Shown here one piece after another: positions 42,785 through 52,634 of a stretch of 64,000 bases of DNA (the first letter of the stretch is position 1; every line of letters starts with the position of its first letter). The stretch lies in assembly GCA_945881885.1 (NCBI GenBank), contig CAMCVI010000005.1:62001-126000 (forward strand), written 5' to 3'. Origin of the DNA: Chryseobacterium gleum. GTDB taxonomy: Bacteria > Bacteroidota > Bacteroidia > Flavobacteriales > Flavobacteriaceae. A model generated the notes under the pieces. That model was not told the DNA's origin. It saw nothing but the letters and a program-made list of their open reading frames with translations, and made no database searches. A program made the translations under genes and the position numbers.

Positions 42785-44257
42785 ATGCTTAAACACAGTT
42801 TAAATTTCAAATTATCACAAAAATTATCGCCTCAACAAATACAGTTGATGAAGTTGATTCAATTGCCTACGCAAGCTTTTGAGCAACGTTTGCAAGAGGA
42901 AATGGTTGATAATCCTGCTTTAGAAGGAAGTTTAGACGACAATACAGAATCTTTAGAGGATTATAATGACACTTCAAATGATGAAGACAGTTATGACGAT
43001 TACGACAACGACCAAATTGATACTGGCGACATTAATATTGATGAATATTTAAGCAATGACGATACGCCAGATTATAAATATCAAAGTAATAATTATAGCG
43101 ATGACGATGAAGACCGAACGCTGCCTATGGCTGCACAAATTAGTTTTCATCAAGATTTAATAAACCAATTAAACACTTTTATTCTTTCAGAAAACGACAG
43201 AGAAATTGCTGAATTTTTGGTTGGAAGTATTGAAGATTCTGGTTATATCAGAAGAACCATTCAGGATATAGTTGATGATATGGCTTTTACGCAAGGCGTT
43301 TACACCGATGAAAAAACGGTTGAAAAAGTCTTGCACATTGTACAACAACTAGAACCTTCTGGGGTAGGCGCTAGAGATTTACAAGAATGTTTATTGATTC
43401 AATTAAAACACAAAACCCCAACGGAATCGGTTAATTTAGCAATTACATTAATCGACAAACAATTTGATGCGTTTACCAAAAAACATTACGATAAATTACT
43501 ACAAAAATTTGATTGTTCCAAAGAACAATTAAAAAAAGCCATTGAAGAAATTGAAAAATTAAATCCAAAACCGGGTGGAAGTTATGATAGCAATAGTAGA
43601 ATTGTGGAACATGTAGTGCCAGATTTTACCATTCGTATTGTAAATGGCGAATTAGAATTACTTTTGAACGGCAGAAACGCACCAGAATTACATGTGTCAA
43701 AAGACTATCAAGAAATGTTACAAACGTATAAAGTTTCAAACGATAAATCTAATTCACAGAAAGATGCAGTGCAATTTATCAAACAAAAATTAGATTCTGC
43801 CAAATGGTTCATTGATGCCATCAAACAGCGTCAAGAAACCTTGTTTGTTACCATGAACGCCATAATGTATTTTCAACAAGAATATTTTTTAGAAGGCGAA
43901 GAATCAAAACTAAAACCAATGATTCTAAAGGATATTGCTGAAATGATTGGTTTAGATATTTCAACTATTTCTCGAGTTGCGAATAGTAAATATGTTGATA
44001 CACCATACGGAACAAAATTAATTAAAGAATTCTTTTCTGAAGCAATGAAAAACGATCAAGGAGAAGACGTTTCTACCATTGAAATCAAAAATATTTTAGA
44101 ACGCGTTATTGCAGAAGAAGACAAAAGCAAGCCATTGCCAGATGAGGATTTAGCAGCTATTTTAAAAGAAAAAGGATTTCCTATTGCAAGAAGGACTATT
44201 GCCAAATACCGAGAACAATTAGATATTCCGGTAGCCAGATTGAGAAAAAAAATGTAA
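42785..44257 (+). CDS. rpoN: RNA polymerase sigma-54 factor
   Basis: Alternative sigma factor that recognises -24/-12 promoters and needs an ATP-driven activator. The 490 residues have region I (FKLSQKLSPQQIQLMKLIQLP, given as LSQKLSPQQIQLMKL), a very acidic region II rich in Asp, Glu and Asn (about 50-115), the core-binding domain with VGSIEDSGYI and LEPSGVGARDLQECL, the HTH segment IGLDISTISRVANSKYV and the RpoN box ARRTIAKYREQL near the C-terminus. All are intact. No sigma-54 activator gene is in the window. Confidence 0.96.
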   Translation: MLKHSLNFKLSQKLSPQQIQLMKLIQLPTQAFEQRLQEEMVDNPALEGSLDDNTESLEDYNDTSNDEDSYDDYDNDQIDTGDINIDEYLSNDDTPDYKYQSNNYSDDDEDRTLPMAAQISFHQDLINQLNTFILSENDREIAEFLVGSIEDSGYIRRTIQDIVDDMAFTQGVYTDEKTVEKVLHIVQQLEPSGVGARDLQECLLIQLKHKTPTESVNLAITLIDKQFDAFTKKHYDKLLQKFDCSKEQLKKAIEEIEKLNPKPGGSYDSNSRIVEHVVPDFTIRIVNGELELLLNGRNAPELHVSKDYQEMLQTYKVSNDKSNSQKDAVQFIKQKLDSAKWFIDAIKQRQETLFVTMNAIMYFQQEYFLEGEESKLKPMILKDIAEMIGLDISTISRVANSKYVDTPYGTKLIKEFFSEAMKNDQGEDVSTIEIKNILERVIAEEDKSKPLPDEDLAAILKEKGFPIARRTIAKYREQLDIPVARLRKKM

Positions 44258-48660: not shown

Positions 48661-49641
48661 TTAATAAACCATTAAATTACAACCTCTTATGTCAGAATTG
48701 TCAAATCTTCCTAATACTTCAAAAGTCATATTGTGTTGTTTTTTCCCTAAATCTTGTGTAGCGATAAACGAACAAGAATTAATATTCGCCAAATCAATTA
48801 CATTGATGCCACCTGTTTTTCCGTTTTCAACATATTGTAACGCGTCTTCCGTATCTCTTATCAGTACATCCATCCATAAAGGACATTCAAAAATCCCTTT
48901 TCCTAAAGAGTAAGCTTGCGATAAAAGTTCGGTCATTCCGTATTCTGAATGTATGGTGTTTACTCCAAATCCTTCGCAAAGTGTTTGGTGTAGTTCTTCT
49001 CGAATGATTTCTTTTCGTTTGCCTTTCATGCCACCAGTTTCCATTATGATGGTGTTTTTTAAATTGAATTTTTTGTATTCAATTAGGTCTAATAAAGCAT
49101 AAGTAACCCCAATTAATAACACATTTTGACCTTCATTTTCAAGTTCAATAATTTTATTAGCAAGTTGTTCCAGATTATTTAAATAAAATCCACTGTCTTT
49201 ATGATTACATTTAGTAATCAAATCGTTAACCATATAAATTAAAGAAGAACCGTTTCTTTCTAAATAGGATGGAAGTAACGCTAAAACACAATATTCTTGA
49301 ATATTCCCGTAAAATTGAGCGAAAGCTAAGGTATAGCTATTTTCGTATAAAGAAATATCTGTAACAAAATGTTGGCTAGTAGTTGCTCCAGAAGTTCCGC
49401 TACTAGTAAAAATAGCTTGAGCTTGTTCAAAATTTGAGACAATTGTTTCAGATTTAAAAAATTGTATCGGTAAAAACGGAATGGCATTTATTTGCTTGAC
49501 ATTACTTGTATTTTTCCCTAAATGATTACAAAATGCTTGATACACTTTGTTGTTTTCGTATTGGTAACGAAAAACCTTTAAAGTAATTTTTTCAAATTCT
49601 TTTTTAGAGGAAATAGCAAAAATATCTTCTTGTGAAATCAT
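48661..49641 (-). CDS. LuxE-like acyl-protein synthetase (acyl transferase)
   Basis: An adenylate-forming enzyme fold of 326 residues from the ATG giving MISQEDIFAISS; the ORF-track extension of 11 residues is rejected as hydrophobic spacer. The P-loop-like FTSSGTSGATTSQH (about 86-99), FYLNNLEQLANKII, METGGMKGKRKEII and EYGMTELLSQAYSLGKG are typical of the LuxE/acyl-protein synthetase family. In luminous bacteria LuxE activates fatty acids, but no luxCD or luciferase gene is here, and in Bacteroidota these genes are usually of unknown role or lie near surface-polysaccharide genes. It is followed by tatD. Confidence 0.8.
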   Translation of the reverse strand: MISQEDIFAISSKKEFEKITLKVFRYQYENNKVYQAFCNHLGKNTSNVKQINAIPFLPIQFFKSETIVSNFEQAQAIFTSSGTSGATTSQHFVTDISLYENSYTLAFAQFYGNIQEYCVLALLPSYLERNGSSLIYMVNDLITKCNHKDSGFYLNNLEQLANKIIELENEGQNVLLIGVTYALLDLIEYKKFNLKNTIIMETGGMKGKRKEIIREELHQTLCEGFGVNTIHSEYGMTELLSQAYSLGKGIFECPLWMDVLIRDTEDALQYVENGKTGGINVIDLANINSCSFIATQDLGKKQHNMTFEVLGRFDNSDIRGCNLMVY

Positions 49642-50675: not shown

Positions 50676-51014
50676 CTAATTAATAATCAGTTTTCTAGTA
50701 GCGGAAGCTTCGCCTTCTCTGATTTTAATGATGTATACACCTGGGTTCAAATTAGAGATGTTTAATTCTTTGGTATACAAAACTGTATCTATAACTTTTT
50801 TTCCTAACACGTCAAAAATTTCAACTTTTTTGTCCAAATTTAATTTGGATGTAATATAAACTTTTCCGGTATTGTTTGGGTTTGGATACAAACTTAATCC
50901 TTCAATAATAGGCTCTTGCGATCTAGAAGAGTTGCTGTTTTTGCTTTCTTGAGCCACAGCACCCATACTAAATGATAAGAATAATAGGGTAATATAAATG
51001 TAATTTTTTGCCAT
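50676..51014 (-). CDS. Small secreted protein made of little more than a T9SS sorting domain
   Basis: A 112-residue protein: signal peptide MAKNYIYITLLFLSFSMGAVAQ, a short Ser/Asn-rich linker of about 18 residues (ESKNSNSSRSQEPIIEG), then the T9SS type A sorting domain LSLYPNPNNTGKVYI, IFDVLGKKVID, ISNLNPGVYIIKI and SATRKLIIN. There is no room for a separate functional domain. The upstream spacer to gdhA is 276 bases, AT-rich. Its neighbour also carries a T9SS domain, but the two share only the sorting-domain pattern. Confidence 0.85.
   Translation of the reverse strand: MAKNYIYITLLFLSFSMGAVAQESKNSNSSRSQEPIIEGLSLYPNPNNTGKVYITSKLNLDKKVEIFDVLGKKVIDTVLYTKELNISNLNPGVYIIKIREGEASATRKLIIN

Positions 51015-52634
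<1,620 letters not shown>

Follow-up and report, generated by a model that had tools for sequence, protein, structure and literature searches.

We conclude that the small gene described here encodes a T9SS sorting domain without cargo, that this gene is retained in many genera of the Flavobacteriaceae with its sorting domain under strong purifying selection, and that it is preceded by a conserved, putatively sigma-54-like element of its own. T9SS sorting domains are usually treated as disposable address labels. That a conserved gene should encode the label only, behind a putative promoter of its own and with residues conserved in its lineage in particular, implies some activity of the sorting domain alone. 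Our tentative preference, held with limited confidence, is that the passenger-free type A sorting domain is itself the product and would work at the secretion machine as a client or ligand. The gene lies within the 64,000-nucleotide stretch of DNA that was analysed as a whole (the window), and its features and neighbours are collected in Table 1.

Table 1. Coordinates of the cargo-less sorting-domain gene, its putative promoter and other features of the window.
Feature	Coordinates	Strand	Details
CDS, cargo-less T9SS sorting-domain protein, 112 aa	50676..51014	-	ATG start, frame intact
Sec signal peptide (putative), residues 1-21	50952..51014	-	A21^Q22 cleavage inferred by eye
Linker, residues 22-40	50895..50951	-	disordered; sequence and length variable; terminal E-G-L conserved
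Type A sorting domain (CTD), residues 41-112 and stop	50676..50894	-	Ig-like beta-sandwich
Own promoter (putative), sigma-54-like	51037..51066	-	TGGAAT (51065-51060) - N5 - TTG (51054-51052)
"Slot" T9SS cargo gene, 269 aa	49764..50573	-	weak CBM_4_9 match (below Pfam cut-off) and type A CTD
LuxE-like acyl-protein synthetase (PF04443), usual downstream boundary of locus	48661..49641	-	
rpoN (sigma-54)	42785..44257	+	

The sequence-only reading had described a secreted protein that is almost only a T9SS sorting domain, and this description held: a signal-peptide-like N-terminus and about 19 linker residues precede a full type A CTD. The N-terminal sequence is typical of signal peptides, is helical from residue 3 to 17 in the AF2 model, and has a near-invariant AQ at its end, where we placed the boundary by eye (h-region, AVA^Q). 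In a domain-family search of the 112-aa protein nothing beyond sorting-domain families matched, namely TIGR04183 (57.5 bits, cut-off 23) and PF18962 (55.6 bits, cut-off 27), the whole of each profile being covered by CTD residues 42-112. Between Q22 and the YPNP motif there are only some 19-20 residues, and in the 31 orthologues with an assignable mature start the distance from that start to two residues before YPNP was 12-21 (median 18). A passenger (cargo) domain is absent, its place being taken by about 19 disordered residues, both here and in all 36 sequences of the genus.

In the AF2 model, which was built with 36 orthologues, the signal peptide is helical, the linker is disordered (pLDDT 43) and the remainder is a confidently predicted beta-sandwich (pLDDT 94-97); the best PDB matches by Foldseek include the translocon-bound CTDs of NucA, RemA and FspA of F. 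johnsoniae (8glk_D, 8gl6_D and 8glj_D; TM 0.86 by target length for 8glk_D). With these type A substrates the protein shares the CTD fold and the near-invariant Lys near the C-terminus (K108, 98% conserved), the role of which has been described (PMC10994853), and like them it probably has a signal peptide. Unlike them it has no passenger, carries additional lineage-specific residues and has its own putative sigma-54-like promoter. K62, E100 and R107 are conserved at 98-100% in the cargo-less lineage, compared with 26-48% in the CTDs of the slot proteins and 0-5% in 20 other CTDs of the genome, and Y53 and E83 likewise differ between the cargo-less lineage and other CTDs. Residues so specific to the lineage suggest selection beyond that for being sorted, and the near-invariance of K62, E100 and R107 in particular suggests a function beyond mere sorting. 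The same genome encodes the PorU sortase and the PorV shuttle as well as 34 further sorting-domain matches; five such matches outside the gene lie in short open frames of 163-188 aa (G000 C2:100292, C14:32928, C32:1111, C34:1563 and C3:151251), some of them near contig ends, and are possibly further T9SS proteins with small cargo.

A full-length orthologue of 104-116 aa is present in 35 of the 36 genomes of the same genus; in the remaining one (G021) the contig ends at the site. None of these orthologues has an N-terminal extension or a larger N-terminal domain, the finding that the sequence-only reading had named as the one that would speak for a deletion here. Pooled pN/pS over eight close sequences was 0.42 for the signal peptide, 0.29 for the linker and 0.08 for the sorting domain; the ratios are uncorrected counts and synonymous sites were saturated in some pairs, so 0.08 is, if anything, an overestimate for the sorting domain, on which purifying selection is strong. 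The constant length and these ratios rule out a recent deletion or a pseudogene, in agreement with the earlier judgement, made from the absence of a frame break, that the gene is intact.

Beyond the genus, roughly 135 of 301 sampled genomes of the family had a match at E <= 1e-26 (hand count), and among the family matches listed nearly all open frames were shorter than 185 aa (mostly about 102-185 aa). Outside the family there was no comparable full-length short match except for a weak 139-aa frame (G479, 56 bits). Thirty family genomes, picked for their weak matches, were examined for loss or replacement of the gene: two carry a short but diverged version (L223, L237), in some phoB and LuxE are direct neighbors, and in many the position is occupied by a cargo-bearing T9SS protein of 320-795 aa. 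Several genomes of the family lack the gene and yet have type A substrates, so that the cargo-less gene is not universal and the T9SS does not require it. In several other genera (L166-L170, L174, L180) two cargo-less copies of about 102 and 107 aa stand in tandem; these mostly split into two separate clades, and in G091 an in-frame TGA is seen in the second of them.

Was the cargo lost, and if so, when? A CTD tree, which rests on 75 columns, gathers the cargo-less proteins, from Flavobacterium as well as from other genera, into a single lineage (support 83/96) that holds 58 of the 59 core members and the long-branch short row L223, which had stood among the slot proteins in a first tree. Four short rows on long branches lie outside the lineage or shift position. 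An AU test neither rejected nor proved the cargo-less clade (p = 0.19). The lineage is related to the CTDs of cargo-bearing proteins encoded at the same locus, and it branches among them when the tree is rooted; in some other genera a cargo-bearing T9SS protein is all that is found at that place. We read this pattern as descent from a cargo-bearing protein of the phoB-luxE locus: the cargo would have disappeared in a single ancient event, and the gene would have been retained for long afterwards. We also considered whether the CTD arose by fission from the upstream FII lipoprotein, but the nearest relatives are the CTDs of same-locus cargo proteins, and FII is an optional insertion between phoB and the gene.

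The earlier suggestion that the gene is a remnant of a larger one thus survives in an ancient sense, given one old lineage close to cargo-bearing CTDs, and fails in the sense of decay, since the gene has been kept without cargo under purifying selection. A remnant with no present function is the explanation to which we give least credence: the grouping with cargo-bearing proteins of the same locus, and the genera that have only such proteins there, would suit it, but it is already contradicted by the tests of selection and conservation, that is, by retention at constant length throughout the genus and more widely, by the low pN/pS and by a dedicated, conserved promoter.

The linker bears on a different proposal, also raised from the sequence in the first instance, in which the protein would be a carrier for a short peptide: PorU would cut off the CTD and free the linker of about 15-19 residues as the active product. 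Sorting domains are normally removed by PorU, which is present, and there is some regularity at the two ends of the linker, its mature N-terminus often being Q[ED]xK and its end EGL. Against this, the linker varies in both sequence and length (12-21 residues) and is under roughly fourfold weaker constraint than the CTD, in which the lineage-specific conservation also sits. Because the linker is so weakly constrained, a role as peptide carrier is unlikely and we disfavor it.

The neighborhood of the gene has a conserved order that recurs across genera of the Flavobacteriaceae: divergent phoR-phoB, an optional TonB receptor (TBDT) and FII lipoprotein, the cargo-less gene, none to two T9SS cargo genes, a LuxE-like gene and TyrRS. 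The cargo-less gene stays where TBDT/FII have been lost (L038, L042, L044, L049) and where LuxE has been lost (L037, L056), and as it is retained where each neighbor is missing it is independent of any of them. Where present, the receptor and FII genes occur in both orders (L161, L171, L172, L180 and L240 versus L158 and L168). In the clade of the window the phoB neighbor has been lost (phoRB has moved, L182), and the divergent gene upstream is one for a gdhA-like glutamate dehydrogenase (51249-52634). Loci of the Flavobacterium type were also found in MAG records whose titles look wrong (L077, L096, L109, L110, L116 and L132, titled Chryseobacterium gleum, Rhizobium, Chitinophaga pinensis, Klebsiella pneumoniae and Bdellovibrio).

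The slot cargo genes downstream, in contrast, seem to change rapidly. Relative to the cargo-less protein, the cargo-bearing proteins of the phoB-luxE locus are its closest CTD relatives and are encoded by adjacent genes, but they carry a fast-changing passenger of 200-700 aa and lack the special promoter. The slot proteins of the window and of L077 (9376, 647 aa) have CTDs that are 97% identical and remainders that are 28% identical, which suggests that passengers are swapped while the sorting domain is kept and that turnover in the slot is fast. Such turnover could be taken to favor a purely genomic role, in which the gene would serve as a cassette of CTD and promoter from which new slot cargo genes are made by recombination. 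We regard this as quite improbable, because the slot CTDs group apart and resemble the cargo-less gene of their own genome no more than those of other genomes, so that they have not been re-derived from it, and because evolutionary usefulness alone leaves the purifying selection unexplained. Nor does the same comparison of identities support gene conversion with the cargo-less gene as template for the slot CTDs.

Upstream of the gene lies an element that is largely confined to it. The pattern TGGYRY-N5-TTG occurs in 83 of 109 upstream regions of the gene and in about 0% of 564 controls, these being the upstream regions of seven other gene types at the same loci; the stricter TGGYAY-N5-TTG occurs in 77 of the 109 compared with 2 of the 564, and in none of the shuffled sequences. 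The copy in the window, TGGAAT, has one mismatch to this stricter family core. Spacing is rigid at N5, with N4 in two cases and N3 or N6 in none. In six relatives the extended pattern has a single genomic match each, always at the cargo-less gene. A looser pattern gave 46 matches in 61 genomes, of which 17 are placed at the cargo-less gene by known coordinates and several more probably are, leaving at most 29 to be set against about 23 for a reversed control. Beyond the cargo-less gene, then, the extended element occurs at about the background rate.

The sigma-54 consensus is TGGCAC-N5-7-TTGCT (PMC12316311), and the element has the GG/TTG core and the rigid -24/-12 spacing of sigma-54 promoters. 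The base after TTG, which is C in the -12 GC of the consensus, is usually A (A in 50 of 83 copies, C in 13; TTGA in the window), and for this reason we call the element only sigma-54-like. We infer that it is a sigma-54 promoter; rpoN, whose product such a promoter would need, was present in all 40 genomes searched and also lies in the window. A box TAnnTTT is mostly found 10-17 nt after TTG. The two elements of an ordinary Bacteroidetes -33/-7 promoter keep a usual spacing, which this distance does not fit, and we rejected that assignment, although the box could be a second, overlapping promoter. In many genomes an intrinsic-terminator-like hairpin closes the FII gene and the conserved element lies after it, an arrangement by which the gene, as predicted from these signals, is set apart from the TBDT/FII unit. 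The location suggested regulation by phosphate through PhoB, which we tentatively set aside: a terminator closes the upstream genes, and the gene has an element of its own.

What might such a protein do? We suggest, with the reserve stated at the outset, that it would be exported by Sec to the periplasm, fold into the CTD sandwich and, as a minimal type A client with nothing attached, enter the SprA pore and bind PorV; there it would serve as a regulated ligand that acts on the machine, be it as an occupancy or priming factor, a competitor or a reporter of status, and the linker would not be carried as a product. A passenger-free CTD is plausible as a ligand of the machine, given that a CTD occupies the SprA pore and contacts PorV through a very large interface (PMC10994853). 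The protein may also be the decoy, loading the secretion machinery, that was proposed from the sequence alone. PMC12618676 infers an excess or recycling of PorV, which speaks against simple titration; simple competition would then need high expression. Length and architecture that are constant in 35 of 36 genomes, and occurrence at the same locus in other genera, count for this reading, as do persistence where neighbors are lost, the low CTD pN/pS, the fold match to translocon CTDs, K108, the lineage-specific K62, E100 and R107, the gene-specific element, the single lineage and the presence of PorU and PorV; absence from several family genomes that have type A substrates counts against it. The more specific proposal, that a free type A sorting domain under sigma-54 control occupies or probes the SprA-PorV translocon and thereby sets or reports the capacity of the T9SS, is more doubtful. 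If the protein does act on the translocon, a single gene would give access to the way in which T9SS activity is gauged or limited, and its product would be a natural minimal ligand for use in structural and binding studies. The link between sigma-54 and the T9SS that is predicted here is one of which we found no description in the literature searched.

The protein already has an entry in the literature. Fjoh_0547 of F. johnsoniae, a small CTD protein of 112 aa, has been reported in supernatants even of sprA and porV mutants (PMC7712824); it equals the window protein in length and, by its locus number, in place, following the TBDT Fjoh_0545 and the FII lipoprotein Fjoh_0546, which belong to the PhoBR cluster (PMC8115612), and we consider it the orthologue by synteny and length. 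PMC7712824 mentions Fjoh_0547 briefly, without going into its conservation, its promoter or the lack of cargo throughout its lineage, and PMC8115612 does not name it in the main text. As far as we searched, neither the cargo-less lineage nor its locus nor its dedicated promoter has been described.

The supernatant result leads to the main rival of the machine-ligand reading, one that stands close behind it even if we think it, too, may well be wrong: the sorting domain could have been recruited as a small stand-alone, secreted or surface Ig-like protein for which the T9SS is at most the exit route. Its role, on an equally guarded view, might be in matrix, adhesion, vesicles or nutrient acquisition, perhaps together with the phoB-linked TonB receptor and lipoprotein. 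Release of the presumed orthologue without SprA or PorV agrees with this, as do the charged residues conserved in a lineage-specific manner and the frequent position beside TBDT/FII genes that are Pi-regulated (PMC8115612). On the other hand, every fold and sorting feature of a type A CTD has been kept, the Lys included, and the gene is separated from TBDT/FII by its promoter and the upstream terminator and stays when they leave.

For action at the secretion machine there is a possible functional analogue in PorA of Porphyromonas gingivalis, a small CTD protein that acts on PorXY-SigP, is found on the surface even without the T9SS, and has been proposed in its CTD-bearing form to signal T9SS status (PMC7712824). 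PorA is no orthologue of the window protein: by the BLAST searches of that study it is restricted to Porphyromonas, and it has a FimH-like domain where the window protein has no N-terminal domain.
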